Assembly: GCA_031763025.1 (NCBI GenBank)
Contig: JASSKH010000011.1
Coordinates: 12,746,580-12,810,579 of the forward strand
Direction of reading: 5' to 3'
Origin: Macrocystis pyrifera
Lineage: Eukaryota > Sar > Phaeophyceae > Laminariales > Laminariaceae
Length of the DNA stretch: 64,000 nucleotides
Every line of letters starts with the position of its first letter. The first letter of the stretch is position 1. The notes beneath the pieces were generated by a model. That model was not told where the DNA came from and ran no database searches. It saw only the letters and a program-made list of their open reading frames with translations. Shown here in pieces: positions 3,001-54,864 of the stretch. Made by a program: the position numbers and the translations under genes.

Positions 3001-6000
3001 CGATGTTTCGATAGTGCACGAAGCGACTGAAAAGCGAACCTATGATACTGTACTTGTCTCCTTTCTTGTCTCCCACTTCCTTTGTTTGCGATCCCGCGCC
3101 TTCCTCTGTTTGCAATCCTCCGCCTCCCTCTGTTTACAGTCCTGCACCTTCCTCTGTTCGCAATCTTGAACCTTCCTTTGTTTTTGCATTGCTGCGCCTC
3201 CTGTCGTTTGCAATCCTGCGCCTTCCTTTGTTTGCAATCCCTTCAGGCGTTCCAAGCCGCACTCGAGTCCGAGAGGGAAAACGCGGCAGCGAATGAGATG
3301 GCGGTGGAGGATGGAAAAAAGCTGCTCAAAGCCCTCAGAGACGAGCGGAAGAGTCTCAAGGTATACCAAACAGCTTACAGAAGTAGACGTGACGAAAGAG
3401 AAAAAAAAACACAGCATGAGAATAAGAGCATAAGGCTCGCTTTGCGAAGGGCGCAAGAACTATGAATTAAGAAAGCGTTCTCAGTGACGAGAGCTACAAT
3501 AAACCCTACCTGGTATAAAATAGTAGTATATGCTCAAGGTTTTTGAAGGATGGTGTCACATCTATAAGGCTCTAAGGCTTGCTCGGATTATATGTTTCTT
3601 GGCGAGCCTGTATTGTAATATTCAAGTGTTTTTGTTTCGAGCTCGTTGGTTTTGTTTTACCGTGTAAGTACGCGCGATAGAAGTCTCACTATTTATAGTA
3701 TACCACAGAGCTTGCAGAGATGATCTTCGACGAAAATCCTCGATCTCACAGCTTTGTTTTTTATGTTTTATTAATATCTTAACATACGAGTTATAGGTCC
3801 ATCAGTTTTTACTGCTGCGCAGCTCAACTCGCACGATTGCTTTTGGCAGCGCGTATTTTTGTGCTGGTTTGGTCACCACGTTTACCTTCCAGCTCAGCTC
3901 GCTGTACCGAGTATTGTCGTTTTGGCGTTTTTTTTTGTGCTGGTTTGTCCACGAGCCACTCTTGGGTTTCCAGCTTCGTGATCACACCCGGAGATGGACG
4001 TAAAACTAAAGCTCCGACACCCACACTATCCGTTTTCGAGACAGAGAGAGGAGGTAGGGTAGGGGGGGGGGGGGTATACGTAAAACCAAGTAGAAGAAGT
4101 TGTGAAAAAAACGATTTTCGTAAAATTCGTCAGAAATCCCACTGCATTTTTTTTTTTTTCGGTTTCGTTTTTTTTTTTTTCGCCGTGTTTGTTTAGTGGT
4201 GTGGTGTCGTTCTTTCTCTTTCGTCGAACACCCCTGCACGAAAAACAGATAAAACGATATACACTCATTCCCGAGGCCACACTGAAAAAAAAAAAGTAGA
4301 CTGGTGAGATTTCTGGACGATGGTAGAAAATTACATCGTTTCTTCCACTTGGTTTGGGCATACCCCCCCCCCCCCCCCTGTCTGAGACTCGAACGAAAAA
4401 AGCGGTGTGTCGTTTTTTTTTTTTTTTTTTGGTGCGAATACCCCTGGCTCGGCTCGCCTTCGTTTGTTTTTGTTGACTTTTTGCTGTGGTGTCATTGATC
4501 ACTTTCACTTTTTTTGGTTTCCAGCTCCTCTTGCTTAAGTTGTTTTTGTTTTGTTCGGGTTATGTATATACCTATTCGTAGCTTTCTAGTATAGTACATT
4601 TTCTTCATAGCCGTTGATACGCCCGTCCAACGGAAATAATCAACCCCTTTATTGGGGATTCACTACCGTTATGGAGATAAAATACTTAGAATTAGAGTCG
4701 CCTTTAGGTACATGTACACTGCAGTACTAAAGGCCTTAAGCAGTGCACTAGGGAACAGCACGCCGATGCGTACCAGTAGTGGTTGCTCTTGCTTTATAGC
4801 CGTTGATTGTCGCACGTTGACTCTTGGCTCGTCCATCTCGCACAAGGAGCGAGTGTCGGAGAAGGAGAAAAAGGCCGTCGAAGCGTCCGGGCAGGAGGGT
4901 TTCCTGGAAGAAAAGGCGTTGCTGTTTGCGCGCGTGAGGGGGGAGTGGGCGTCGCTCAGGTGCGCTTTGAGGAGGAGGGTGGGGGCGGCAAGGACTCTCC
5001 TGCTGACGGATGGGGCTGCCGCCTCCACGCGGTACCGGAGGACAGACTCGAGCAGGTGAGAGTTGTGGACGCGCGTTACCAGATAGGTGGCAACATATTC
5101 ATACCCCGGACAGACCATCTGCAGATCATACAGATCATGATCTAGATGATCTAGTTCCTCGGCTGCCATTGTGAGAGGTCGCGCAGAATCCACGTAGTAC
5201 AGATCCAACCCAGGGTTTTATGTGCTACTGATAGATGGTGCAGATTGCAGGGGTTCTCACCTGGCAGCATGAGCTACATCATACAAGATCGGGAACGGAT
5301 TATCTATCTGCCTTGATTGATCTAGGTCATGAACTGTGGGAATGATCTATCTGATCTGTCTCAGGCTTGTAAAAAATTTGGGAGCAATCCCACGGCAGGG
5401 GTAGTCTGCACAACTTTTTTTCATTCTGAGGCAATATTGTTCTGACCGTTCGAGCTCCTCAAGTGAACCACTCTTCAATAGACCGGTTACCATCACAAGC
5501 ATGATGCTTTTATTTTTTATTTTTTATTTTTTTTAATCATCACTTTCACTTTCCAGCTTTTAACTCGTAGGAGACCCTCAGCGGTCTTCTTCTGGACAAG
5601 CCGTGGTCACAGGTGTCGTCCCTTCTCCCCCCCGGTACGTGCATTTATTTTTCATCGCGCACAGGGTTCAGCATTCCCACTGCTCGTCGATTTTTATCAA
5701 ATGTAGCCAACTCACGCTTTCGCGCTTTCCACTAATAATCAATTTTTATGCAAGAACAAGTCCTTACGAGTATGCACTCGGTGAGACTTGAACCCACGAA
5801 ATTGATCTTGGTAGGCACGCGGACCACCTACTAGGCCCGTAGTATATTTGTTGTAGGACTAGCGCATGGAAACGCTGGTCGGGCTGGGTGAAAACATACA
5901 TGTTGAACAAGGGGGCACCCTTACAAGGGCTATGTATTGGTGAATAAGGCACCACCTTTGAAGAGGTATTGCTCTTCGGTCAGAATGTTACCGACCCGAC

Positions 6001-9500: not shown

Positions 9501-10636
9501 TCGAACAGATCGACCCCGGGTCTTAAGTGGTCTTGCGGGTCATATTAAATTAAGGTTATAGCTGCCCCGAGAGGTCTAGATCATGAAATGGTGGGGCTGG
9601 GCACCGGCACAGTATGTACTAGCAGTAGTAATCAACTGGTTGACCTGGCCAGTGTATTCGCCTGTAGTTTTTTTTATCGTACGTGCGCCCAAGGGACACA
9701 CCATATTATAGTACGGAAACCCACCAATTGCGTTTCCGGAGGAGGGAAGGGAGGGAGGAGACAGTATACTGCTGCAATCCAGTATTCTGGTTGATTTTGA
9801 CGACAGTGCAATCGCCACTGATTGAGGCAGCCAGTGCCCAGCCCTTTCAAATGGGGATCCATCTGATCTGATCTGTTCGATGTGCTGTCGATAATACTTC
9901 ACGTCTCGTTTGTCGGTTCGCGCAGGGAGGAGTGGCGGAGGCGGTGCACACCAGGGGCACGGGGGGGGAGGGGCAACGGTGCGAGAGACAAGGCGGAGAG
10001 AGCGATGGCGGTGTACGGGAAGGATACCGTGGGGAACAAGCGGTCGTGGGAGGCGGCCATGACGGCTGCAGGTGCGTGTTGGGACGCGATGGTTACGCAA
10101 CGGTGAAATGACGATTGAATTGCGGCTTCTTGACGGTTACATGGCGTGTTGGTGACGGTTTCATATCGGTTACACGACAGGACATCAACTTTATTGGTTC
10201 GTGTTTCGTGTGTTTAGAGAAACCGCCCGTCTGCCTCTGATAGCCATCCACACATCAGACAGATCATCTACAGATCATTCTGGGTTGATGATCTAGATAT
10301 TTCAGGGCAGATGATATGTAAGGATCTGTATGCTCTAGCTCATCTACAGATAATTTCCAGTTGATGATCTAGATATTTCAGGGCAGATGATCAGTATGAT
10401 CTAGCTCATGTTGCAGAGTGGGAGCCGTATGATCTGCATGATCTAGGACACGTTTCCTGGGTTGGATATGTACCGTACAGATCCTGCGCAAACCTCTCAT
10501 GACGACAGCTGACGATCTAGATCTTTCCGGCGTAACTATCCGACGCCCAATTTACTCTCTTTTTCTCCACCTCCTGCTTCCCCTTTCTCTCTGGACTTGT
10601 GTTGTTGTTTGCGTCACGGCTACTGCTGCTGGTGAC

Positions 10637-10694
<58 letters not shown>

Positions 10695-11728
10695 ATGATG
10701 ATGGCGATCATAATGGCGATGCCTCTCATGGTGGTGATGATTGTGATGATGCCGCAGGGGCGGTGCTCGAAGCGGTGGACCGCGTTCTCCACGGCGAGGC
10801 GCACAACGCTTTCTGCGCCGTGCGCCCGCCGGGGCACCATGCCGGGGTGGAACTGCACTGCATGGGCGCCGTGTCGAACGGGTTTTGCATCCTCAACAAT
10901 GTTGCTTTGGCGGCCCTCTACGCTCATCTCTATGGGTGAGGGCTGATTTCCGTTCGCTTTGCTTTGCTTTGCTCTGCTTTTATTTTGCTTTACTTTGCTC
11001 TGCTTTGCTTTGCTTTGCTTTGCTCTGCTTTGCTTTGCTTTGCTTCGCTTTGCTTCGCTTTGCTTTGCTTTGCTTTGCTTCGCTTCGCTTTGCTCTGCTT
11101 TTCTTTTGCTTTGCTTTGCTCTGCTTTTCTTTAGCTTTGCTTTGCTTTGCTTTGCTTGCTTTTCGAGATTGCTTTGTCTCGCTGTGCTTTGGTTTTTCTT
11201 TGCTTTGCTTTGCTTGATTCCTGCGCGCTCGCTGGTCATTGGCGTGGTCTTACGGTGATGTCACGTGTTGTATGCGCTCTGTGTTGCGTATGGTATGTGC
11301 CTGTGTGGTGTATTAATCTTCGTATGTTTCAGGTACTTTGCGCCCTCCGTACACCCCCCCCCCCCCCGATTCTGCCCGTTCAGGTAGGCCGCGAGAGTTG
11401 CTATGGTTGCATGTTCTTGCATGTTGTTGTGCATGTGTTATACCTGGTATACCAGTGCGTGTACTATCGGTCTTACGTGTTTTCAGTGTCGTTACATGAT
11501 TGCGCTTTTTCGGGTGTGTCACATGCACCGCGATTGGTGCAAGCAATGTCTGCCTGGGCGGTGAAAACTCCACGTGCTCCGTCCCGGCATTGTAGGGATG
11601 CGAGGGTCTATGGTCATACGACTACGACCATGCATGATATCGAGCACACCACCCCCCTCCACACACGCTCCGTCTCAAAAGGGATGCGTGGTCAACAGTT
11701 AAATGGCTAAGGCAAGCAACAGATGACC

Positions 11729-11775
<47 letters not shown>

Positions 11776-14700
11776 CCATAGTTGAGAGCTGTATGGGAGA
11801 AAGTAACAAAAGGGCGAGCTGAAATAAGGTGGGATAGCGTAGTTGAGAAAGTATGGAAGGGTCTAGGGGGAAACCAAGAAGAGGCGATGGCCGCCGGGAG
11901 GTTTGGGAGGTGCAAGGCAGAAGTAGAAGAAAGGATAGCAAGAGGGGAAAAGCTAGCGCAAAAAAACAAGGTGGAATCGGAGAAACACTTACTGTAGAGA
12001 TATACGGGGGATTGAGCGAAGGAATAGGAATGAAAACATATGCATGGCCCAATGGACTTCGCAAAAACGCTGAAATTGCGATTTCGTGTAGGTGACCTGG
12101 ACCTGCCACAAAAAAGAACGAGGTATACCAGTAGCCGGGACGGGGAAGTAGATGCAAAGATGTGCCCGTGTGGCAAACCAATAGAGTAGAACTCACATAG
12201 TAGGAGAATGTGAAATGTACAAGGAGGCACGGGATGAGAAAAATAGACGAATGTGACATGGAGGATTTTGATACACTAGATAGCAGCGAGAAAACGATCG
12301 CTATCCTAGGAGACAGATGGTGGCCACGGGCCGCCAAACAGGAAGGTGATAAGATTAGCGAAAAGTTTCTATGTAGTACATGGAAACAACGTAATGAGCG
12401 CCCAAATGTAGGAGGTGTCTCTATTGGGAGTAGGAACGGCGCTCCGTCTCGAAAGGGATGCGTGGTCCATGGTCAAATGACTAAGGCAAGCAACAAATGA
12501 GTACCCCCCCCCCCCCTCCCCCCCATCCACACCCCCACCGCCACCTCCAACCCCACTCTCACCCCACCTCCACCCCCGCCCCCACTTCCACTTCCACCTG
12601 CACAGGTACATGGCGAGAGTGGCCGTGGTTGACTTCGACGTTCACCATGGAAACGGGACCCAAGACGTCCTCTGCAGGACCGAGCACCCGGTTTCCTGTA
12701 CGCATCAATTCACGCGTTCAACCGGGGGGGAGGGGATGCTTCTCAGGCTAAAATTTTCCCGGAACGGGTGCAGCAGGGGAGGCCCACGGCAACGTTCTTA
12801 ACATACCCCTGGGGGATCAGGTGAGGATTTTTTATTTTTATTTTTGGGGGGGGGGGAGGGAAGGTTAGTTGTCCAAAATATTTTTTCTTGCTTAATATCT
12901 CTCTTTTGGACTTTGAGCGGGAAAAAAATGGTGGTACGATTTGCGACGATTGCGGCAACGGGGGGATGATGACACACTTGTGTCCGAGTTAGACCAGCTG
13001 TTGTTATGGGGAATTTTTCCTTTGCTTGCGCCGGGAACTGAGTTTTAACGCTTAACATACGGGTGTTACTCGGCGGGAAAGTCAAAAACACCGGTAGACT
13101 CCTCAGAGTGCTCCCCGGAATTTTCCGAGAGTTTTCTTGTTGAACAGTTTTCCGTTTCTCCAGAGCTTCAGTTTGGTTTTTGGCGCAGCTAATCAGTCTT
13201 CTCTGGAGGGTCAAAAATAAGTACTGTTCGTCAGAACTGGGGCCAGAAATTGTGGATTTTTGAAGATTTTTGATGAAAAATCATGATGTCCCCAGAACTG
13301 GCCCTATGGATGAACAGTCAAACTACGACTCTGGAGAAACGGGAAGCTGCTCCAGAAAGCTCTCGGAAAACTAAGGGGAGCATCCTCTGATGACTATACC
13401 GGTGGTTTTGACAGTCCCGCGGAGTAAATCGCGGGTTTTCGGCAAGAAAAAAATAGTTCTTGAAGCCTTTTTTTTGAGTTGTCCCCTATGAGTTGGTCTT
13501 ACCGTGGGATATAAAGCAAGAACTTGCACCGCAGGGCCGCGAGAAGATCTATGACATTGGACACGTGTAGTGCTCGGCGCTCACGCCGCTCGTATGTATA
13601 CAGGCGTTTGTTAGCGCCAATCGATTTCGTCGTTGTTTCGATGGCTGTGTCTTAACACCCAGAAGGGGCAATAGATTAAAAACCGTTTTCCTCTTGACCC
13701 TTCTAGGGCAAAAAGTGCTGTCCCGTTTTGGAGACAAGCCACTGAAACTCTAAAAGCAGTTTGTTGCCTAAACGGGACTGCAGTCCTTTCTGCAAGGGTT
13801 ACAAAAACGATTTCGAGGGGCTATTTTGACCCCTTTTCGTGCATAATGCAGTCCCATTTTGGAGACAAACCAGTCAAGTTCTAGGTGGTTTGTCCCCAAA
13901 ACGGGACTGTCGTACTAAGAGGGTCAATAATACCTGGTACTCAGAAGCCACGGTGTACCCAAACATAGTGTACCTGCAGACAGTAGTACCCCGTAGACAC
14001 CATATTTATTTTGTTTTTCAACTATTACGGGGGGGCATAGTAAATAGGACCTACGGTAGACACAAAAACCCATATGTTTTGCTTTTTTTACTAAACATAT
14101 TTGGTCCTGTTTACTATGGTCCCCCGTAATACTATATTTCCCCCGTGTTTTTTTCTCGTGAAAAAATGAGTGCGTTTACGGACAGTTTGGCAACGTTTTG
14201 GTACATCCTCTGGGGTATCAGGTGTTTTTTTTTTTCGCGTTTTGTTTTCACGGAAAGTTTTTCGACTCCTTTTTTTTTTTCGCTGTAACAGCCGATTTTC
14301 AATGTTCCCAAGTTTGATTTTGTACCGTGTAACACGCAGGATAACACGCCTCCGTGACAATGAAAACACAAGTAAATATGTATCGATTTATCGGACTTTA
14401 GATGTAGCGTATCGATATTTTTTTCGTTTAACGATATGATATCGAAAGTATCGAAATATCGAACTTTCGGTACCGTTCGACGATTTCTGACCGTTTACGG
14501 TTCGCGCTTCGCGCTCTATCTCTGCACCTCGTGGGTGGGAGCATTGTGCCAAATGGGATAACATCCGGGTGGGATCAGCAAAGCCAAGCAGGGGCCTGTC
14601 TTGTTTTCCCGCGTTTTATGGAGATTTTTCCGAGAAACTTATTTATCTATAAGATGGACTCCGTTGCATATTTTCCTGCTTTTGTGTTGTTTTGTCTTGT

Positions 14701-15411: not shown

Positions 15412-15452
<41 letters not shown>

Positions 15453-16176
15453 ACTCGATACTCGAGAGAGATGTACTCTATACCATGCATGGCCGTAGTC
15501 GTATGACCATAGACCCTCGCATCCCTACAATGCCGGGACGGAGCCCATCGGGTTTTCACCGACCAGGCAGGCATTGCTTGGTTGCATCAACCGCGAAGCG
15601 CCGTAAGGTGTCCGGCGAGTCGCATGAAGGGTGAGCTGCATCCTGCTAAGAACCGCTTGTCAGGCGGACTTGCGTGTGGATGACAGCTTCAATGAGTTAG
15701 TTTAGTTTCCGGTGTGGCCACTTCGAGAGGTAGCAATGGGAGTACTATCTAACTACCTCTTGGGTGGGAGGGAGTTGGTGATTGTGGGTGCGATGGTGGC
15801 GTGGTGTTGGTGCTGGTCGTCCTTGTTGCCGATGTTGCTGTGCCGTCGCTGTCAATACTGGAGCTGCTGGCGGCAGTCGTGCTCGTACTGGTGTAAGGTA
15901 CACCTACTAGAACTGTTCGGCGCTGGTGGCTTATCTGGCACTCTATGTACAGCATCAAGTAGTACAGCCGTACAGCCTCTGCTTTGATGCAACTACACAG
16001 CCCGGCCTCCCGTTGCCGCTTCGTGTCGAACTGCAACAAGTCGTGGAGTCAGGGCTATGAACTCCGCGCGTGTGGCGTGCGGATATCACCAGCAGACGTG
16101 TGTGGAAAGCACGGGGACGGGAGAAGTTGGGTATTTGGGTATTTGGGTGGACTAACCAGGGGACCGAACAACTCCA

Positions 16177-16212
<36 letters not shown>

Positions 16213-19075
16213 CTTCGGCCACACCAGACAAAAAGTACAACGAATTCGACGCCGCATCCATATGCTAGAAAGTCCGCCTCACAAGCAGTGCTGAGTAGGA
16301 TGCAGCATTCACCCTTCACGCGACTCGCCGAACAAGCTCACGGCGTTTCGTGCTTGGTGCAAGCAAATGTCTGCCCGGTCGGTGAAAACCCCGACGTGCT
16401 CCGTCCAGGCATTGTATATAGGGATGCATGGGTCTATGGTCATGCGGACACGGCCACCCAAATAGCATGAGTACCCCTCCCCCCCCCCCCCCCCCCCCCC
16501 CCCCCCCTTCGCGCTCATACGACCAACCCACCAATTTGATACCTGGTGGCATCGCGCAGCCCGGCATCCAGTTGGTACATTGTCGCAGGTGTCGACCCTG
16601 GATTATATCTCGGGGGGGGCTGTTTTCTAGCACGTGCAGATACAACAGCACCGACACTTCCGGGTTGGCACCTATAGAGGTGTTTTTATTACGGGCACAG
16701 GTTACTTAGATTTTTTTTTTTTTTCTGCTTCTTTCATAAATATGTGCTGGAGCTCACCCCCCACCCCCCCCCTCCTTCCCTTTCCCCCGCCCCCGAGCTG
16801 TACAATGAATCAACCAATCACCGGTCTCAAGGCCGATCCGAATCAGCTGGGTACCCTCCACGCCCAAACCTTTTGACGTTTTCGCTCTTCTAAAAAATGG
16901 AACACCCCCCCCCCCCCCCTCCATTCCTCATCCCCCCCTCCGAATTTTGAACAATCAATCCACCGACCACCGACCGCAAGGCCGACCCGTCGCAACTGGG
17001 CACCCTCTGCGCTCAAGATTTCGAGGTTTTCACTCGCAGGATGGTGGTAGCGGCGGAGAGGCTGTGCGGGGGTCGGCTGGTGTCGGTCCTGGAGGGGGGC
17101 TATGCGCTGGACTGCCAGTCTACTGTGCGCCGTTCGGGGCATTCGTGAGTGTGAAGAGCAAAAAAAACGATCTGAAGCCTTTCGGCGTTGCTGTTGCTGC
17201 TGTTTTGGTTGCTGTTTGGTGCTGTTGTTATTTTTTACTATGATGGGTTTCGATTTTGGTGTTCGAAGTTAGTGGTGTTGTGTGCTGGGTGTTTTGTGTA
17301 TTGAGTGTTGTGTGCTGCGACTGTCAGTACTGTCTACTCCTGTGCGACGTTCGAGACAAGGGCGAGTGTGCCGCTCGATCTGAAGCGATTCGGCGTTGTG
17401 TGTTAGGTCTCTTGGGTGTTGTGCTGTGTGTCGTTTGTTGCAGCTGTGCGTGGTGTTGGGTGTGTTTCGTGTTTCGCGCTCTGTATTGCAACTTGGGTGT
17501 GAGTGTCGAGTGTTGGGTGCTGTGCGTTAGGTGTGCTGTGCGCTTGTGTACTCTGTGTTGGTTGCGAATGTTGGGTGCTGGGTGCTGTTGTCTGCGTCTT
17601 GGGTGTTGGATGTTGAGTCTCGTGGGTTTCAGTAGTCTGCTGTGCGTCGGTCGATGGGTGTTGGGTGCTACTGACTCCGTGTTGGGTGTTGCGGGTGTTA
17701 GTCGTCTACTCTGCGGCGGTCGGGACAAGTGTGTGTGTGTGTCGCACGACCTGAAGCGTCACGGCAGGCTACAGTCGTGGTTTGTGTGTTGTGCGCTGAT
17801 TGTGTAGAGCTGTGTGTTGGGTCATATGTGCGTATGTCCGGGTTGTGGTGTGCTTCGTGTGGTTGCTGTGCACCACGTTTTATCATAATTTGTGTTTGCT
17901 GAAGGAAAAGAAACGGCTCTCAAAAGGTTCAAGACAGATCGACGCGTCGCTTTCTATAATACCATGGTCGTGGGTTGAACCCTTGACAGACAAAAAGGTT
18001 GGTTTGCTTGATATTGTATTACGGGAGTCCATAGTTAATAGGACCTATGGTATATACAAAAAAAAAAAACTATATATTTACCTATTTTTACTAACAATAT
18101 TTGGTCCTAATTACTATGGTCCCCCGTAATAGTTTTTATGTGTTGGTTGTTTTGCTCGTGTTGTTGCTCCTTCTGTCCCTTGGTTGTTTCCCTTTATACC
18201 CGCGATGAAAGCGTCACCTCTAAAATCACCATCGCCAGATGGCGGCAAGCTACGTTTGACCCGTCAACGGAACTCAAACGACAACACAAACAATGCCATT
18301 AATACGTGGCGGCCTTAAAACAGAAAAATTAAACCGCAGTATGTTTTCATGTTATGTCCACTAATTCGCTCGTTCTAGAAGGTTTGTGTTTGTTGTGTTG
18401 ATGCTGCTGCCCTTTTGCGCGCCCGCTCAACCGCCGCTGATACCATCGTCATCGACATCGCCACCGCCATCGCCACCGAACAAATAAATGCAGGCGACCG
18501 CCGTCTCCCGTCGGAGGCGTTGTCGGCAAAGGCGGGAAGAAAACTAGGGGTGCCGCCTCCGAGACGCTGGCTGACTGCGTGCAGGTACGCGGGTTGTGTG
18601 TGATATTGCGATAGCGTTGGTGCGGTCGGATTTTGTCGTTCGCTTGAGGAACGGGGGGGGGTGTACTCGATAGGAGAGATGTACTCGATCTCATGCATGG
18701 CCGTAGTCGTACGACCATAGACCCTCGCATCCCTACAATGCCGGGACGGAGCATGTCGGGTTTTCACCGACCAGGCAGACATTGCTTGCACCAAGCGCGA
18801 AGCGCCGTGAGGTGTCCGGCGAGTCGCACGAAGGGTGAGCTGCATCCTACTAAGAACCGCTTGTGAGGCGGACTTGCATATGGATGACAGCTTCAATGAG
18901 TTAGTTTAATTTCCGGTGTGGCCACTTCCAGAGACAGCAATGGGAGTACTATGTAACTGCCTCTTGGGTGCCGTACCTTGAACACTACGTGATACGATCA
19001 ATTCCCTTGAGCAGAGTATAGGTTCTTTACTTCGCACAAATGATCTAAACTAGACGACCAGCTGTGGGCGACCGC

Positions 19076-19108
<33 letters not shown>

Positions 19109-20866
19109 GGTACCCTGGATGTCTAGCTCACGTCGTGAGCGGCATGTTTTACAGTGTCGTTGCCAACCGACGCCAACCCAAACCATAATATAGGGGGGGG
19201 GGGGGGGGGGGGGGGGGGGGAGAAAGCTCTAGGGGATAAGGACGCCTTCCACGATCGGGGTACGGTGGTGTACCCATTTTGAGACCAACCCGTGACAAGA
19301 GCTACTGTAATAAACGGTGTCTTATCTCCACTATGGTCTTATCTTTTACTGTTGAACGAATGATCCCATACCAAATACTACACTGTCCCTAATTATGAAC
19401 AGCGTTTTGATTGAATATTATTACGGGGGTCCATAGTTAATAGGACCTATGGTATACATAAAAACCTGTATATGTACCTATTTTTCCTAACAATATTTGG
19501 TCCTATTTACTATGACCCCCGTAATAGTATTGAAACGGTCCTAAGAATTAGGGACAGAGGGGTAGTAGATTTTTTTTTTTCATGACAAGCCGATTTACTT
19601 GGGCATTATCTGCTGTATGGCCTTGCTAGCCCTCTTCGGACTTGAGCGGGGAAGGTTGCCGATGAAAAAAAGTGTCGATTGTTACAGCAACGGCTGCTGC
19701 GTGATTGGGGTATGATGCAATGGTTGGTGTCCGAGAGACAATGGTTGAATGCAAGGAGTCGTACGGGACGGGCGCCTCAATGACCCGAGGAGCAGGTTAC
19801 GTTTTTCTACTCGTAGACGGTTGGAAACGCCAACGTTGTCCTCGTTGCGGTCGCTACCGGATAGCCGTCCGATGGGTGCACCGTTACCGCACGCAGCACT
19901 TTTTGGCCGAGATGTTTCTGACCGGTGTGGCTTTTTTTTAGGTGAGGCACTGAGGCACTATTGTAGCATCTAGAATCGTTTCCTATCGTTTTCGTTTCAG
20001 ACCTAAGGCCCATCGGGTTAGTTTGCCCATCGGGTTGATTGATATGTACTTTTTTTTTTTCTTCTTGAAACCCAGCTTTTCGGGTGACTTACTCACATGG
20101 GGAGCCTCAGAAAATGTAGGTGCTGCCTCTGGCGATGGTACGGTGATATCACATTATGATGGTGATGATGATATCCTCGCTGTCCCTTTGCGCCATCTGT
20201 CGCAAACAGTAAGGGTTTTCGGGACGATGCCACAGAGGTGAGGTGCTTCCTCTCCTGCCCCTCCCACGTCGATTTCCGTCTGTATGTCGGCCTCCATTCA
20301 GCATCAAGTATTTTGGGAAGGATGGCGTATGAGCGTGAACCCCCCCCCCCTGTATGGAAGACACGTATTGACCGCCCAAAGTGTTGAAGGTGCCTCTGTT
20401 AAGAGTAGGAACAGTGCTCCGTCTCGAAAGGGATGCGTGGTCAATGGTCAAATGACGAATACAAGCAACACATGAGTACCCCCCCCCCCCCCCCCCCCCC
20501 CCCCCCCATCAGAAATTAAATCATTTCATTGACGTTGTCATCAATGAGCAAGAAAATCCGCCTCTAAAGCGGTCCTTCGCAGAATGAAGCTCACCCTTCA
20601 TGGACACTCGCCTATCACCTCACCGTGCTTCGCTTGGTGAAAGCAGTGTCTGCCTGGTCAATGAAAACCCAACGTGCTCCGTTCCGGCATTGTAGGGATG
20701 CGAGGATCTATGGTCATACGACTACGGCCATGCATGACAATGAGTACACCCCCCCCCCCCCCACCGCCCCCCTTTTGGTCGGTGAAAACCCGATGTGCTC
20801 CGTCCCGATGTTATGGAGTTGTGAGGGTCTATGGTCATGTGACTATGGTCATACGTGATATCGATT

Positions 20867-20899
<33 letters not shown>

Positions 20900-30075: not shown

Positions 30076-33000
30076 ATTATCTGTTTATACCTGTATCTGC
30101 TGTGTCAGCGTCTGTTTATACCTGTATCTGTGTATTATCTGTTTATACCTGTACCTGGTATCTGCTGTGTCAGCGTCTGTTTCTGATCCGTATCTATCTG
30201 CATCTGTGTTTGTATGTGTCTGCTCGGCCCAACAGGTGACGAAGCCCGACCACATTATCGCTAGCGACGTGTACCAGCCCAGCCTCGACAGACTGTCGAC
30301 GTCGGGCATCCGGACGTCTCAAAACAACATGGAGGCGAGTGGCCGACCATGCTCCATAAGACGAGACACAGGCCTGACATGCCTCTGCATCGCACCGCTT
30401 TAAAATCATAGCAGCGCAGCAGATCCCTCAACAGGAGTAAAAGGTTCCGTCCTGCGTTCGTCAATACGTATTGCATGTTGTTGAGTTGCCGCCATGTACC
30501 GACGAGGCGGGAAAAACTGCGTGGAATGAGTGTGGAGTGGTTTGTGGGATAGGACATACAGTAGTGTCGCTCCCTCTATAGTGCTACTATTAATAATAGT
30601 ATGCGGCAGTCAGCCAACAATACCGACGGTATAGCGGCAACGAACCGGCACTATTTACGCCGCACACTGCCGCACTGTCGCACTGGTTCATACGTTCATA
30701 CATGCCAAGCGATCTCACCGGCACTATATATAGGGCAGCCGGCAATATACCATACTCAACCGGCACTACAGAGCTATAGAGGGACCACTACTGTAAAGCA
30801 ATCACCAGCGCTGTTCACGGGTCATGACTCGACCCGACAAAAGGTCTTCAAAACCTCAAGGGCCGGGTCGGGTCGGGTCGGGTCGAGTCGGGTCGGGTCA
30901 GAAGGTATTCTAAGAATCTCGCGGTTATAGTCTAGTCGGGCCGGGTCGGGTCGGATGGGGATAGGTTTCCCTATCCGACCCGACCCGCAAGTTTTGAACC
31001 GACCCGTGAACAGCAGTGCTGGAAGAATCAGGCATCAACCCTTTTAGTTAATACTGCAGTCCCGTTCTGGAGACAAACTACTTACAAATAGAGTGCTTCG
31101 TCTTCTATACGGGACTGCAGTACTAACGGTCCTACTGTAGAAGGGTTAATGATGTTTGAACGGCATCCTTTCTGGGGACGAGCTTGTATAGAAGGAAAAG
31201 GGCTCTTGTGCAGAAGTGCGCGTGTTTTGTGTGTTTATTTTTGCGCGCGCTTGTTTTGTTTTTGTGTTGCCTGTTTTGTGCGTATTTTGTGTGTTTTGTA
31301 TGCTTGTGTGTCTGAGCGGGTGGTTTGTGTGTATTCTATCATAATCGCCATCGAGCACACTCGTATCCTACAGCAGTACTTATCCTTGTAGAAGGGCTAA
31401 AAGTCCATGAGTTTGATTACGTAGTTGATGAGACTACTCGTAGTCTCCTGCTGTAGTTGGTTATACCTGGTAATTGTTACAATATTCTTATTTCACCTGG
31501 TACTTGGTCAGTTTGAATATTTTGGTCATTTTCGTCATTTTGGCGTTTTTAATCCTTGGATCACTTTTATTACGCCCATATGATTCAAAACGCAAAGCAG
31601 TATTTGAATATTTCCAGTCGTTTTTTATTATTATTATTGTTTTGTCAATTTATTGTCACATCTTGATTTTTTTTTTGTTTCTTGACTATTGACGATGACG
31701 GTATCGATGATGTCAGGTTGTGTCGGGCGCCGACGTGGTCATCTTGGCGGTGAAGCCCGACATCATCCCCGCGGTGCTCAAGGAGATCGACCAGCACCTC
31801 ACGAAGGACTCGCTCGTCATCTCCATCGCTGCGGGCGTGCCGCTGGCCGTCTTGGAGCAGGTTAGTGCACGAAAGAAAATGATTCGTACTCACACCAATC
31901 ATGTCGTATAAGATCCCCACATCATGATCTGGATTTTTTGCCAGCACCTCGGATCCCCAAATCATTTTCTAGATTTTTGCCAGCACCTCACAAACGAATG
32001 ACTCTCGCATCGTCTCCATCGCCAGGGGCGTGCCAACTGGCCGTCCCAGAGCAGGTGAGCGAACGAACGAAATGATTCTTACTCGTACAGATCAGATCCT
32101 CAGATCATGATCTAGATCTTACCAGCACCTCACGACCATCCCCCATCGTCGTGTCCCTCGCTTGCGGGCGTGCCCCTGACGGTCTTGGACCAGGAGACGC
32201 ATCGAGTCAAACCGATTCGAACTCGTGCCCAAATCATGATATAGTCCCTACGGGCGGGCAGACACCTGATCTTCGTGATGTACGTGATCTAGACTGGGCC
32301 AGCTATTACGGGGGGCCCATAGTAAATATTACCTGCGGTACACACAAAAACCTGTATATTTCCCTAATTTTACTGACAATATTTTGTCCTATTTACTATG
32401 GCCCCCCGTAATGGATCACCTCATTGTGTCTAAAGCTGCGGGCGTGCGCCTCTGGCCGTCTTGGAGCACGCGGTTTAACGAAATAAACTTGGTTTGTACC
32501 ATTGCGGGGGACCATAGTAAATAGGACCCACGGTACACACAAAAACCTTTATATTTGACTATTTTTTACTAACAATATTTGGTCCTATTTACTACAGTCC
32601 CCCGTACTATTTATAGTACAGATCAGACCCCCAAGTTGTCGTGATGTTAGTGCAGCAGACTCGCTCGTCGTCTCCGTCGCTGCGAGCGTGCCGCTTTTGC
32701 CCATCTTGGAGCTGAGGTGGATATAAAAAAAAGAAGAATGATTGGGAGACATTCGTACATACCATATCCCCAAACGATCCTCTAGATCTGTCAGGACATA
32801 GATGATGTATAGATAATCTGTCAGGAGATTGATAATGTAGAGATGATCTGTCAGGAGATAGATGGTTTATAGATGATCTGCATGGTCTAGATGATGTATA
32901 GATGCTCTGGCAGGAGATAGATGGTGTATAGATGATCTGTCAGGAGATAGATGATGTATAGATGATCTGGCAGGAGATAGATGATGTGTAGATGATCTGG

Positions 33001-36000
33001 CAGGAGATAGACGATGTATAGATGATCTGTCAGGAGATAGATGATGTATAGATGATCTGTCAGGAGATAGATGATGTATAGGTGATCTGCATGATGTGAT
33101 GAAGATGATGTTGCCGTTTGGACCAGATGAGTGAACCAACCAAAAAGGGCTCGAACCAGATTCTCCTACTATTACGGGGGACCATAGCAAATAGGACCAA
33201 ATATTATTGGTAAAAATAGGTAAAATATCAAGGTTTTTTGTGTGTACCGTAGGTCCTACCGGTATTTACTATGGTCCCCCGTAATATCATATGCCTGGAA
33301 CATGTGTACCTTATTGTTTTTATGTTATTTTCACTGTACGAGAGGGCGGAAAGGGCAGTTTCAAGTCAAAAGCCACCTGACAAGGCCGCAGCGCGCAAGC
33401 AAGCCTGTCAAAACCACAACCACGACTTTTAATTTCACCCCTCACGACCTACTTGATATGTCCAGTCAAAATTAGCGACCGTTTGTACCCGTTTTTTTTC
33501 ATGCATCGACCTGCTCTTCCCCGCCCCCCCCCCCCCCCCCCCCCCCCGCCTCCTTCCCGGGTTTGTTTTTTCTCTTGCCTCACCAGGAGCACCGCACCCG
33601 TGGTTGTCTGAGGTGTGGCAGCAGCAACGCAAACAACCTGACTCCCTCCCCACCCTCTTCCCACCTCCCACCTTCCCCCTCCTCGTCTCTCCCCCTCCCT
33701 CGTTTCCCCTCCTCCTCCCTCTCCCCTCCCCGTCCACCCTCCCCCCAACCCCCCCCCGCCCCCTTGCGCCCCCCCCCCCCGGGCTTTTCAGTTGGCGCCT
33801 GGCAAGCGAGTGGTGAGGGTAATGCCCAACACCCCCTGCCTGGTCTCGGAGAGCGCTGCCGCGTTTGCTTTGGGATCTGTTGCTACGGACGAGGACAAGG
33901 AGGTAGTTCAGAGTCTTCTCGGGGCCGTTGGCTATGCTTGCGAGGTCAAGGAGTCGCAGCTTGATGGTGAGGAGTAGGGGGGGGGAGGGGATGTACTCAA
34001 TATCATGCATGACCGTAGTCGGGGGGGGGGGGGGGGGGGGGTGAACTGAGCTATAGCTAGGAGGGGTTGGGCGGGGGCGGGAGGGGGAGGGGAGCTAACT
34101 GGTCGGGAGGTCGAATGGGGGGGGGAGTAGGAGAGGAGGCGAGGGGCGGGGAGAAGGGGGGGGGAGATGGAGGGGGACTAGGGGGGGCGTCAACGCTAAC
34201 TGATCGGGGAGTGGAATGGGGGGGGGGGGGGGGGTTGGGGAGGGGATGGGGAGGAAGGGAGGGGAGAAGGGAGGTGGGGGAGGGGGGTTTACTCATGTCA
34301 TTGATGGCCGTAGTGGTATGATCATAGACCCTCGCACCCCTTGGAAGGGTGGGGGGGGTGCAGGGGGTTTACTACATACCAGGGTAGACGTAGCGAGCGA
34401 GAAAAATTCACTCGGATGGAGGTTAAGGAGGACCAACAAGCAAGACACGGAGATAGCAATTGACTGCACGCAACAAGATGGTGGAAAGGTCCAGGCCGTA
34501 AAACACTATTAACAACGCACTTTTTTGTGGGGGAAACTAAACATCTTGGCACTGCCGTACGTATTTTTTCCAACCCCTCTTGTTCAGCCCTTTTGCTACA
34601 GCCACGCGTGTCTCGCTCGCAGCAACGCCGCTTACCCCCCCCCCCCCCCCCCCCCCCCCCCTCCCTCCTCTCTCTCCTCCCTCGCGCGTTTTCCCCCCCC
34701 CCCCTTCTCCCATCCCTTTGTTCACCACGCTCTTTCATCATCATCTTCATCATCATCATCGTCATCATCATCACCATCAACCATTGTCATCACCATCAAC
34801 CATTGTCATCACCGTCAACCATTGTCATCTATCAATCACCATAATAATCACCACCACCACCATTATCATCCTCATCATCCTCATCATCGCTATCGACTTC
34901 TGGCGTGGTTGCGATGACATACACATACAATACACAACACCATTGAAAAAATATATAACAACAGCGGTGACGGGGGTCAGTGGCAGCGGGCCGGCGTACA
35001 TCTTCGTGCTGATCGAGGCCCTCGCCGACGGCGGCGTCCGCATGGGCTTGCCTCGCGCCACGGCTCTCAAGCTGGCGGCGCAGACGGTCAAGGGAGCCGC
35101 GACTATGGTGCTCGAGACCGGGACACACCCAGGTGCCAAACACATGAGTACCTGGTACCAATAGTATACCACTGTTTGTAGTATTCCATACACTTTTTTC
35201 AAGTCTCATTCCATGGTGGGGGTTTGCACTTCTTGGACAGCTTTTTTTTTCTAACCTCTGGGGCTCCTAAAGGGAGCAAACTGTCGGTTTGTGTTTTCGG
35301 TTTGTGTTTTGATATATGTTAACTCGCGAGTGGAATGCGTTTGGTCTGGTTGCGGAACACCCTTTTCGCCAAGGTCATGTTTTAGGTGAGATATTGACCT
35401 CCTTGTACCCTAGTATATGCATGGAGCTCAGAAAACAGTAAGCCACCACTCCTAAGGGGGCATTGGTCCAGAAATGCTATTACATGTTGCATGTTATTTC
35501 GGGAGACCACAGTAAATAGGACCAAATATTGTTAGTAGAAATAGGTAAATATATAGGTTTTTGTGTGTGCCGTAGGTCCTATTAACTATGGTCCCCCGTA
35601 CTAGGGATGTACAGAGCGAAAGAGGCTTGCCACGATAGGAGTACGTATAGATGATACCAGGTAGCACTTTTTTGGCCAATCTATTTTCTGACTGAGATGG
35701 GGCTTCCCGGTCTCAGGTTAGGAACTACAGTGTTATTAAACTACTACAGGTAACCCCACACTTTTTTTTTTTTTTTTTTTTTTGAAATTACAAGAAAAGA
35801 ACAGAAGAATCGAGAAAAGCCTCTTTTACCGTGGTCGGGAAAAATAAACGAGAGCGCTGAAAACCGCCGTCTAGCCAAAACCTAACCCTAACCCATCATG
35901 CTGGGGTGTACTGTATCGTACATGTCGCTCTGCTTTCGATGATCCTCCCCCCCCCCCCCCCCCCCCCTATGACTATGGCCATGTATGATATCGAGTACAC

Positions 36001-36897: not shown

Positions 36898-36965
36898 GGG
36901 TACTCATTTGTTGCTTGCCTTAGTCATGTGACCATTGACCACGCATCCCTTTCGAGGCGGAGCAC
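36898..36965 (-). mobile_element. Type B LINE 3' end (minus)
   Basis: GGGGGTACTCATTTGTTGC, TTGACCACGCATCCC and TTTCGAGGCGGAGCAC are the reverse of the 12.5 kb end; only about 65 bp. Confidence 0.75.
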
Positions 36966-42794: not shown

Positions 42795-44696
42795 TGTGTG
42801 TGTGTGTGTGTGTTCTTCACATTAAACCGTTCTTCTACTCGTCGACATCCAGCAAGCCCAGTGTCCGTGCTGATTCTTCACCCTAGAAAGATACGAGCTC
42901 TGTGGTCACAGACTACGACACAGAGATAACACACCGTAATGCATTAATAGCCTACGTAATACCATGCCTTCGCACTAGGTGCGGCCGACACAACATACAT
43001 ACATACGCCAGCAACCAAAATACACCATAAAGAAAGAGAAGCAACGAAAAAACCAAACCGAAAAAGAACAAGAAAAAGAAAAAGAAAAAGAAAAGGAGAA
43101 GAATCTCAAATAAATAAATAAAATGGGAAGCCAAAGCTCAGACACATACATACTTACCCCGAGCATGAGCCAAAAGGGACGTGCAAGGGGAAAGATACGA
43201 GAAGGAAAAAGGGGACTATGCATCCCGGTGAACACTTAACTAAGTAAAAAGAGCAATAGTGAGTGGGCCAAAATACGCTCGTCACCCACCCACTATGTAG
43301 TTCTTCTTTCATAAGGATAAGAAGGGAAAAAAAAAAAAAAAAAATCAAAATGCATACCGAACGGCCGCAGCAGTTGGCGGTACGAGTAGCAAAGAAACGT
43401 CCAACCTATTAGTCGGCCTGGTACCTTGCTACCCTATCTGCGGTCTCTCTGCTACTCTCTTCTACCGCGGTTTCCCTTCTACTCCTCCTGTTCCCCCCCC
43501 TGCCCCTATACACTTGTACGGTGTTCCCTCTACCCCTCCTGCTGTTACCCCTCCCCCCATTCCCTCTAACACTACCTGCAGCGGATGCACGGCGCTGTCT
43601 ACTCAGCTTTGCCTCAGCCTCGTGCCACCTGCCCATGAACTGTTCAGCTGCTTCGAGGATTCCCCGGTACCACTTTCCCGTCTGTTTTGCTGCAGTGGGC
43701 CACAGTGCGGTCCCAACTCCAAAGACTAAGGGGGAGTCTTCCGTTGATCCCTCTGAGGCTTTGAACACTCTAAGGTCCTCAGCAATTGCCCTAGGCCAAG
43801 TCTTAGGCTGCCCGCCTGGTTTCGGGCTCCCCCCACCAGCGATCGTCCCGAACATCAACCGACTGGGCAATCGCCCCTCGTGTTGCCGCACCACAGCCCC
43901 CGCAAAGAAGAGTCGCCGTTTACGGATGGTCGTTTCGATACTTTCGCATCGTGTTATCCTGAGCGCCTTCGCATACGAGAGGGTGGTGTGGTCGGTGCGT
44001 AGTCGGCGCTGGAAACCAATGACTCGCAGAAGGACTTCGTGGTGGGCTGATCGAAGCTTGGCGAAGTGGTCCGCATTGAGGGTCCACGTCACGCAACCGT
44101 ACAGCAAGGTCTCAATCACCTCGGCCTTCAGCATCCGGACTTTCAGACTAAGCGGTGCGTTCGTCCTATCGTACAGTTCCGGACCATACCGTTTGAGGCA
44201 TGCCCGCATCAGACGGATTCGTCGCTCGATTTCGAAGGAGAGGTCAGCGTTCTCGTGGATAATGCCTCCTAGGTACAAAAACTGGGTCGTCTGTTTATAC
44301 TTTTGGCCTGCAGCTTCGATCGCGAGCGGTGAGGTGGTAAACGTCTGATCCGGTGTTCGTAGGAGCATCGTCTCTGTCTTCTTCTCGGATACCGTGAGAC
44401 CTACTGCTTCGAAGACAGTCACGATGACTGTCATCATTCTCGCAAGGCCTTCCGCCGACTTCGAGACTATTCCTGCATCGTCTGCATACAACATGCCCCA
44501 CACAGCCCTTTGCACGCATGCCAACGGTTCCTCTTTTCCGACAACCCTGTCCTCTTCGAGATGAACCAAATCCCTTACGATGCATTCGTCTTTGCTGAAG
44601 CGTACCAGCACGATGTGTATCGCAGCGGCGAAGAACACGTTGAACAGTAACGGCGATAGTACGCAGCCTTGCCGCTGTGAGTTCGACTGATTAAAT
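42795..44696 (-). mobile_element. 5'-truncated non-LTR retrotransposon (LINE) with CA-repeat tail
   Basis: Flanked by identical 16-bp ATTTACGTCAGCTGTG at 42779-42794 and 44697-44712. The 3' end on minus is GGTTTAATGTGAAGAA followed by about ten CA units. The 5' junction cuts reverse transcriptase domain sequence and carries about 22 bp (CTGTGAGTTCGACTGATTAA...) matching the adjoining target, as filler. The 3' UTR is 43408-42795. Confidence 0.88.
43409..44683 (-). CDS. LINE reverse transcriptase, C-terminal part, open
   Basis: Open across about 425 codons. It starts inside the RT domain at SQRQGCVLSPLLFNVFFA (44683 downward), then WGMLYADDAGIVSKSAEGL (catalytic YADD), VSEKKTETM, FLYLGGII and a long C-terminal region with KAEVIETLLYGCVTW and LPSRLMFGTIAGG. 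The C-terminus is Arg/Gly-rich. No endonuclease domain is present: it would lie upstream of the truncation, so the copy cannot be autonomous. The ORF being intact suggests a fairly young insertion. Confidence 0.9.
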   Translation of the reverse strand, partial: NSQRQGCVLSPLLFNVFFAAAIHIVLVRFSKDECIVRDLVHLEEDRVVGKEEPLACVQRAVWGMLYADDAGIVSKSAEGLARMMTVIVTVFEAVGLTVSEKKTETMLLRTPDQTFTTSPLAIEAAGQKYKQTTQFLYLGGIIHENADLSFEIERRIRLMRACLKRYGPELYDRTNAPLSLKVRMLKAEVIETLLYGCVTWTLNADHFAKLRSAHHEVLLRVIGFQRRLRTDHTTLSYAKALRITRCESIETTIRKRRLFFAGAVVRQHEGRLPSRLMFGTIAGGGSPKPGGQPKTWPRAIAEDLRVFKASEGSTEDSPLVFGVGTALWPTAAKQTGKWYRGILEAAEQFMGRWHEAEAKLSRQRRASAAGSVRGNGGRGNSRRGRGNTVQVYRGRGGNRRSRRETAVEESSRETADRVARYQAD

Positions 44697-44887
44697 ATTT
44701 ACGTCAGCTGTGAGTTCGACTGATTAAATAGTTGATACTCAACTTTGTTATTGTTTGTAAAAATCGATAACTACGTAACTATGTAGATTTTTGTGTGTAC
44801 CGTAGGTCCTATTTACTTTGGCCCCCCGTAATAATAGTACGTGGTAACGGTACATACATGTAAAGGGCGAAAACGCGACGTGATGCT

Positions 44888-53960: not shown

Positions 53961-54261
53961 AACGGGGAGATTTACGCCAGCTTTGCGGGGTGTGGCCAGC
54001 TCGGTGTGGCAGCAGCGGTGTGTCCTACTGCCGCTTGCTGCTGCTGTAAGGTTCGGAGGTAGAGGTTGATGTCTCGGGTCCGAGTCCGCATCGAGTCCGA
54101 GGCCGCTGGTCGCATTTTAAAAGCCCTCACAGCCACCGTTAAAGTTGCCGTCCCGTCGCCCATCACACCCCACCCCACTGGCCACAAGTGAACTGCCCCG
54201 GGCATTTTTTTCACCATGTAATAATGTGGAAACAGCGTATTAAGCCCCCAACTGCTGTTGG

Positions 54262-54352
54262 AGGTGTCTTTATTAGGAGTAGGAACGGTGATCCGTCTCG
54301 GAAGGGATGCGTATTCAATGGTCGAATGGCTAACGCAAGCAACAAGTGAGTA

Positions 54353-54386
<34 letters not shown>
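54262..54386 (+). mobile_element. Type B LINE 3' end, C-rich tail of about 30
   Basis: SRNGDPSRKGCVFNGRMANA then SNK and TGA, GTATG and the C tract. WKQR and VGGVFIRS are still readable upstream (54222-54285). Confidence 0.82.
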
Positions 54387-54387
<1 letters not shown>

Positions 54388-54516
54388 CCCCCCCCGCCAG
54401 TCGGTGAGTGGTCGCCCCTATTAATAGTCGTCCTGCGCTTTGCAGCTGCTGTGTGCCGTTTCCGCCCAGCCTCACCTCAGAGGACGATCCCCCCTCGCTT
54501 CGGCAGTAACTGACTA

Positions 54517-54621
54517 TTACGGGGGCTCATAGTTAATAGGACCTATGGTGTACATAAAAACCTATATATTTGACTATTTTTACTAACAATATTTGGTCCT
54601 ATTTACTATGGCCCCCCGTAA
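54517..54621. mobile_element. TTACGGGGG MITE
   Basis: TTACGGGGGCTCATAGTTAA to CTATGGCCCCCCGTAA, flanked by TA/TA. Confidence 0.93.
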
Positions 54622-54864
54622 TATTAATGATCACATTATTAGTGGTACGCGACAGCAGCAGTTAAGAATCTCCTACTTTGACTAAGAAGGCTCGCGGCCT
54701 GTTTAATAGTGTGGTGTTGATGTTGAGCATGGGCTCTTAAATGCTGTTGTATCGGATTTAGAAAGGCGTTCCTCGCTGAGCACAACTGCGTGTAATCCGT
54801 GTCGTATACACGCACGGCAGCAGTGTCGCTGTACACATTCTTGGCGTTGAAACAAAATCAGCCT

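Follow-up and report, generated by a model that had tools for sequence, protein, structure and literature searches.

A LINE of Macrocystis pyrifera, likely of the RTE clade, very probably uses poly-C tracts as insertion target as well as tail

In a 64-kb stretch of the Macrocystis pyrifera genome (assembly GCA_031763025.1, contig JASSKH010000011.1, positions 12,746,580 to 12,810,579; hereafter the window), copies of a long interspersed nuclear element (LINE) end in long C tracts a few bases behind their stop codon. Analysis of the window and of the complete 537-Mb assembly (223 contigs) makes it very probable that the tract is target as well as tail, with an RTE-like LINE inserting in a single orientation into C tracts. 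The tract precedes the element, forms part of the target duplication and occurs in paralogous empty sites; target choice is therefore our main explanation, and C addition an extra. A sequence-only reading of the window had proposed poly-C addition or slippage by the reverse transcriptase, of which a gain of some C at one locus survives; it overlooked both the C tracts on the 5' side and a shorter non-autonomous family with the same ends and targets, here called the partner.

LINE 3' ends were collected across the assembly by protein and by nucleotide sequence. A search with the C-terminal protein returned 13844 candidate places, reading frames being inspected in the best-scoring 150, and the 30 loci brought in via this protein served as the set for stop-to-tract distances. 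In all 30 a C tract of at least five C begins 3, 4, 5 or 8 nt past the stop codon; the common 3' forms are GTACGCCAC, GTACGCCC and GTACCC, and the start point varies as GTACGCCACCC, GTACGCCC and GTACCC. Exact 19-nt LINE ends, counted on the forward strand only since the reverse count (9010) includes sites repeatedly, carry C6 within 6 nt in 1960 of 2319 cases. There are 4681 occurrences of the motif TGAGTAC10 on the two strands (2288 + 2393), compared with 18 (12 + 6) of its backwards-read version, a rarity that argues against a chance origin of the former. Sequence beyond the tract mostly varies by locus. The claimed LINE identity, C tail and near-absence of a 3' untranslated region (UTR) are borne out. 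Similar sequence past the tract is confined to the duplicated loci L031-L033 and to L036, L047 and L058, where a partner element comes next. The unequal tracts of L031-L033 (C26, C35 and C29) may reflect instability or mis-assembly as far as the exact length is concerned. An assembly artefact as the source of the tracts themselves is ruled out by their fixed place and orientation across thousands of copies, lengths remaining uncertain.

C tracts are equally a feature of the 5' side. Among 23 precisely mapped, 5'-truncated LINE copies with both ends available (L037 was excluded, its LINE being interrupted by another repeat), 21 have a run of at least six C within 45 nt of the left edge, with a median longest run of 15 and a median right-hand tract of 20; random window positions satisfy the same 45-nt criterion in 4.3% of cases for C and 3.5% for G. 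Six further junctions, four with C6 (L072, L073, L084/L070, L067/L068) and two without (L069, L071), bring the count to 25/29. Both long copies that retain the 5' end begin after C-rich sequence, one of them after C40-TT-C6. In a broader set of 112 LINE and partner junctions, the 30 nt to the left contain C6 in 44/52 LINE and 27/60 partner cases (71/112 in total, compared with 3.4% of random window positions), and G6 or longer is present in the left flank of none. Orientation is thus fixed, the sense strand carrying the C's to the left as well as to the right of the element. This set was reduced from 170 matches by removing 58 (22 duplicates, 14 without a 3' end and 22 near a locus edge); it still holds duplicated loci such as L001/L005/L009, and for diverged partner copies the 5' edge is only approximate. 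A separate partner set, in which 55 of 80 matches were retained including the duplicated loci L001/L005/L009, L016/L023/L026, L003/L027 and L013/L030, has C6 or longer on the left in 35/55 and G6 or longer in none.

The flanks further reveal target duplications. A few bases that separate the left tract from the element often reappear past the right tract, namely ATGCTCCAA (L063), TACCCA (L041), TCCCCGT (L059), TCCAA (L062) and GCG (L061). Over the 23 truncated copies, matched non-C letters beyond the tract sum to 33, whereas shuffled right flanks give a mean of 14.3 and a maximum of 26, none of 5000 shuffles reaching 33. Only 8/23 copies have two or more matching non-C letters, implying that many duplications consist of C only or are unreadable.

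Empty sites place the tract before the insertion. The LINE copy at L063 sits within another repeat family, and a search with its joined flanks yielded 186 candidates, of which all 40 scored places run through without the element. Of three empty sites inspected, L074 and L076 read CTCAAACT-C10-ATGCTCCAA and L077 has C9 instead; the filled site has CTCAAACT-C10-ATGCTCCAA to the left of the LINE and C22-A-ATGCTCCAA to its right. Filled and empty versions together indicate that the tract pre-existed, that it belongs to the duplicated target and that at least 12 C were gained at or after insertion. A pre-existing repeat is likewise found at L049, whose paralogue within L061 is an uninterrupted C19, and the tail of L044 is accounted for by the target alone (C5-T-C5). 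At L056, empty paralogues within the window (at 52.2 kb and at 43.5 kb, near an RVT_1 frame at 43409-44698) are C-rich with C6 runs. A second flank search added no more clean empty sites, returning the loci themselves, a duplicate of the L044 insertion and two weak partial matches.

Several observations weigh against C-tract targeting. Four of the 29 LINE junctions lack C6 in the 45 nt to their left: L035 (C4), L059 (C5, in a C-rich stretch), L069 (C4) and L071 (none). L067/L068 qualifies only when its 5' end is set 13 nt further upstream, as L084/L070 suggests, its C6 ending 30 nt away, and 20/55 partner copies are without C6 on the left. The L056 empty sites are C-rich and not a single pure tract. 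The L063 tail of C22 against C10 in the empty site, together with one extra A, means that target choice alone is insufficient for tail length. Finally, the nick, the annealing, the slippage and the recognition of the 3' module in RNA are inferred from sequence.

The excess of C at L063 is what an insertion-made tail would produce, with the tract deriving from RNA ending in C (added post-transcriptionally or copied from the parent) or from slippage of the enzyme, and with targets unselected as in described RTE elements. The window offers similar support: among its 35 tracts of at least 10 C on either strand, the 15 touching a LINE or partner copy in the right orientation have a median length of 28, compared with 14 for the 20 unlinked tracts (p 0.0096). 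Such an origin does not, however, predict the tracts to the left of 21/23 copies, the target bases between left tract and element (L041, L059, L061, L062, L063), the C tracts of empty sites or a tail such as that of L044. As a full explanation it conflicts with the left tracts, with the target duplications and with the empty sites, and we consider it improbable; it survives as an additional step.

Left tracts might instead arise as reverse transcription ends, through G's added to the 3' end of the complementary DNA (cDNA) or through a jump from the 5' end of one RNA onto the C tail of a second one, which would build arrays in one event. Head-to-tail arrays such as L060, with four LINE copies, fit this idea, as do seven LINE copies lying directly behind an older element tail (L051, L055, L060, L061, L072, L073 and L084/L070), although these seven count in favour of C-tract targeting too. 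Most left tracts of the 23-copy set are nevertheless preceded by non-element sequence, several are followed by target bases, and the empty sites already contain the tract, leaving this account slightly less credible than an insertion-made tail. Random insertion with survival only in C tracts, or growth of tracts on both sides by replication slippage after insertion, draws on the instability of mononucleotide tracts and their unequal lengths between duplicated loci, but it is very unlikely in view of the one-strand orientation (0/112 with G6 on the left), the non-C bases common to both sides and the inability of later slippage to make a tract in an empty paralogue.

Within the window, LINE, partner and linked C tracts are arranged as follows, where PART, LINE and LINE63 denote the reference sequences matched:

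11529-11648, plus strand: 5'-truncated copy of the partner (~500-nt family), 90% to PART 380-501
11667-11729, plus strand: 63-nt LINE copy consisting of the 3' end module only, starting GCTCCGTCTC and ending TGACCA, 90% to LINE 5812-5871
11730-11774, plus strand: C45, which ends the 63-nt copy and flanks the following LINE copy on its left
11775-12503, plus strand: 5'-truncated LINE copy, the 3' ~730 nt of ~5.9 kb, 87% to LINE 5125-5874
12504-12524, plus strand: C13-T-C7 tract behind this LINE copy
15412-15451, minus strand (minus-strand C): C40 tract after the partner copy 15472-15767
15472-15767, minus strand: partner copy, 89% to PART 208-501
18680-19181, minus strand: near full-length partner keeping the 5' motif common with the LINE, 93% to PART 9-501 and 88% to LINE 6-45
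19193-19220, minus strand (minus-strand C): C28 tract directly upstream of the near full-length partner
20340-20350, plus strand: C11 tract bordering the following LINE copy on its 5' side
20350-20478, plus strand: 5'-truncated LINE copy ending TGAGTA, 87% to LINE63 3399-3526
20479-20507, plus strand: C29 tract from LINE copy to partner copy
20508-20748, plus strand: 5'-truncated partner copy, 81% to PART 266-501
20749-20762, plus strand: C14 tract
20776-20868, plus strand: second truncated partner copy of the same array
20868-20897, plus strand: C30 tract
36900-36965, minus strand: module-length LINE copy, tail decayed to CCCCTCCCCC, 95% to LINE63 3462-3526
54217-54352, plus strand: 5'-truncated LINE copy, 86.5% to LINE63 3404-3525
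54355-54386, plus strand: C32 tract behind the 54217-54352 copy

The five LINE 3' ends noticed in the sequence-only reading are all present, at 11667-11729, 11775-12503, 20350-20478 and 54217-54352 on the plus strand and at 36900-36965 on the minus strand. The long C tail ascribed to all five holds for four (45, 13, 29 and 32 C), the 36.9-kb copy having only CCCCTCCCCC, and a TGA-GTA end is not common to all, as the 11.7-kb copy ends in TGACCA and the 54.3-kb copy in TGAGTATG. The zinc-knuckle-like CPCG...H...C motif is indeed kept in the 12-kb copy, where the frame is broken (as judged by eye); this decayed copy has its TGA at 12498-12500, followed by GTA. The window contains parts of a histone deacetylase gene and of a gene for pyrroline-5-carboxylate reductase that look split by introns, pointing at a nuclear eukaryotic genome, and the LINE/partner cluster at 11.5-12.5 kb sits between histone deacetylase exons (Hist_deacetyl; window 10442-12700, with the downstream exon at ~12.6 kb by eye). 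Other repeats in the window comprise a second LINE family, represented by a 429-amino-acid frame with RVT_1 at 43409-44698 on the minus strand, a 30-nt tandem repeat (GATCTGTCAGGAGATAGATGATGTATA...) at 32755-33123, and a ~110-nt repeat family ending about ...CCCCCGTAA (14021-14134, 19417-19530, 54513-54626 and others), which may be a small DNA transposon. The piece interrupting the LINE in L037 (about 1002-1110) ends like this ~110-nt family, by eye.

The LINE itself is about 5.9 kb long, as measured on the first of two long copies (L068 + L067; L084 + L070) that have a common 5' end near ACAAAATCT. A tandem-repeat leader precedes a single frame encoding endonuclease and reverse transcriptase, frame-shifted before the C-terminus in L067. 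The leader repeats, of ~62/125 nt (AAACCGGATTTAGACATGAA...), occupy element positions 212-858 in L068/L067 and are possibly promoter repeats. The endonuclease of L067 is of APE type (Exo_endo_phos, PF03372, E 9.5e-11, above the cut-off), and the reverse transcriptase (RVT_1, E 1.7e-29) has R2 and LINE-1 ORF2 as its top solved-structure matches. Inspected by eye over the matched stretch, the CPCG...H...C C-terminus contains stops in only 8 of the best 150 among the 13844 places. In the loci found via the protein, long matches share 93.8-97.6% identity with L063. Candidates for the C-terminus outnumber those for an endonuclease piece (1024), as expected from 5' truncation, although query lengths differ and the numbers are a rough guide only. 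A LINE-type reverse transcriptase, an endonuclease domain and frequent 5' truncation with target duplications identify the family as a LINE. The very short 3' UTR with a simple repeat, and endonuclease and reverse transcriptase joined in one open reading frame (ORF), make membership in the RTE clade likely, the clade name being suggested by sequence features; the APE-like endonuclease argues against a restriction-like-endonuclease clade, Tx1 and R1 being further candidate clades. Sequence-unspecific target sites, another RTE trait, are not what is found here, with C6 or longer at 25/29 left junctions.

Numerous LINE copies consist of the last ~63 nt only. C6 lies no more than 12 nt upstream of this module start in 405 of 2171 reverse-strand occurrences and G6 in 2 of 2171, the forward count (1739) being left aside as sites were counted repeatedly. 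Many LINE 3' ends begin at or just above one base of the module, among them window 11667-11729 and 36900-36965 and those in L006, L020, L046 and L060, suggestive of either a strong stop or a minimal mobile unit. Two-hairpin folds are similar in many single 3' sequences, with z values of -2.0, -0.8, -1.9 and +0.3 in four of them; folding of a joint 3'-end alignment gave no consensus structure and no covariation support for 3' hairpins.

The partner is a ~500-nt non-autonomous family that has 35/40 nt in common with the LINE near the 5' end and 40/56 near the 3' end. Its match to the LINE 3' end (44/54 positions, E 1e-7) is a trait of stringent-type pairs, and this common end suggests that the reverse transcriptase recognizes the last ~65 nt. 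LINE and partner copies form head-to-tail arrays at 11.53-12.52 kb and 20.34-20.90 kb of the window, and in L060 the four LINE copies are separated by C tracts. In several partner copies the tail preceding the C's is doubled and reads ATCGAGTAC-ATCTCTCCT-ATCGAGTAC (L058 at about 2485-2516; window 15452-15472), as if the reverse transcriptase had jumped once at the start. A SINE (short interspersed nuclear element) in the strict sense would carry a Pol III promoter derived from a small cellular RNA. In the window, including the near full-length partner, there was no tRNA and no Rfam match at gathering score; promoter boxes were not otherwise searched.

These features can be accommodated in a scheme of target-primed reverse transcription. 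The endonuclease would nick the G strand within a C tract, leaving a ...GGG-3'OH end that could pair with the C's of the RNA 3' end, ...UGAGUACGCC(A)CC... or GUACGCC(A)CC, and reverse transcription would then start at slightly varying C's among copies. A top-strand cut 0 to about 10 nt past the tract would duplicate the C's together with those bases. Pairing of the G run with C's of the RNA would explain why insertion is in a single orientation, why C's are duplicated and why the starts vary. The C's added in at least one insertion may come from slippage or from C-tailed RNA, later tract growth being also compatible with the data. Each insertion would leave C tracts on both sides as landing sites for later ones, from which head-to-tail LINE/partner arrays would follow. 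We see about even chances for a more general version, in which the annealing of tail to target known from the group has become true homopolymer targeting in an RTE-like APE LINE that uses any long C/G tract, adds C's and makes two tracts of one. If so, element, partner and poly-C tracts would multiply together, the element would itself be the main source of the many long C tracts, and the filling of a genome with such tracts would be explained. As the last 20 or so codons lie within the 3' module common with the partner, a single stretch may serve both protein and RNA.

We compared this family with described systems, drawing on excerpts of the papers cited. In PMC2887409, RTE-clade LINEs of lepidopterans and others have a single long ORF encoding endonuclease and reverse transcriptase, an extremely short 3' UTR with a simple repeat and many 5'-truncated copies, all as found here. 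The tail type, considered unusual in the sequence-only reading, is so only for its C, since a near-absent 3' UTR with a simple repeat is an RTE trait described there. Unlike in the present family, where the repeat is pre-existing and inside the duplication, the RTE sites are described in these excerpts as not appearing sequence-specific and the repeats as lying between the target duplications, thus being new at the site. Bov-B and the Sauria SINE are similar in one respect: according to PMC13295347 (2026), they carry a Tn-TA signature in which the first target-duplication base goes with the 3' repeat, suggesting annealing of primer and template. A target-duplication base tied to the 3' repeat is common to both cases, but the preference described there is for sites near three T's, whereas here a C homopolymer tract is the site.

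Non-autonomous relatives have parallels as well. The Ectocarpus RTE-X LINEs, set beside ours by description, are abundant and accompanied by the ~600-bp non-autonomous RTEX-N1_Ec32 with the same 3' end (PMC12477816); the 5' origin of RTEX-N1 was not found in that account, whereas the partner here also has the LINE's first ~40 nt. The terms 'poly-C' and 'homopolymer' are absent from the main text of PMC12477816 in the form consulted. Stringent-type LINE/SINE pairs, like ours with the LINE 3' end in the partner, and non-autonomous families that also take RTE 5' ends (Bov-A2, RTE1-N1_LA) are covered in PMC3747384, in whose excerpts the 3' repeats given for plant and green-algal RTE and RTEX include no (C)n.

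Insertion into a pre-existing simple repeat is known from Togen, in (TG)n, and some HERO elements (PMC4640811), and from Dong, in (TAA)n, and TRAS (PMC2887409). Their repeats differ from ours, none of those named in these excerpts using poly-C; HERO carries a restriction-like endonuclease, and Togen is a relative of the NeSL clade, which has this type of endonuclease too (PMC4640811). No poly-C-targeting or poly-C-tailed LINE was recognizable from titles and abstract starts in the open-access literature, relative to which poly-C targeting appears new. Site-specific LINEs among APE clades are known only in Tx1 and R1 according to the excerpts of PMC13295347. The known repeat-targeting LINEs with a stated clade in these sources belong to Tx1, R1 or restriction-like-endonuclease groups, from which an RTE-like poly-C element departs. 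The family is a LINE, probably of the RTE clade to judge by its sequence, whose apparent target specificity departs from RTE as described, and its poly-C targeting would represent another route to site specificity, through pairing of the G strand with the C end of the RNA and not through a long recognized sequence.

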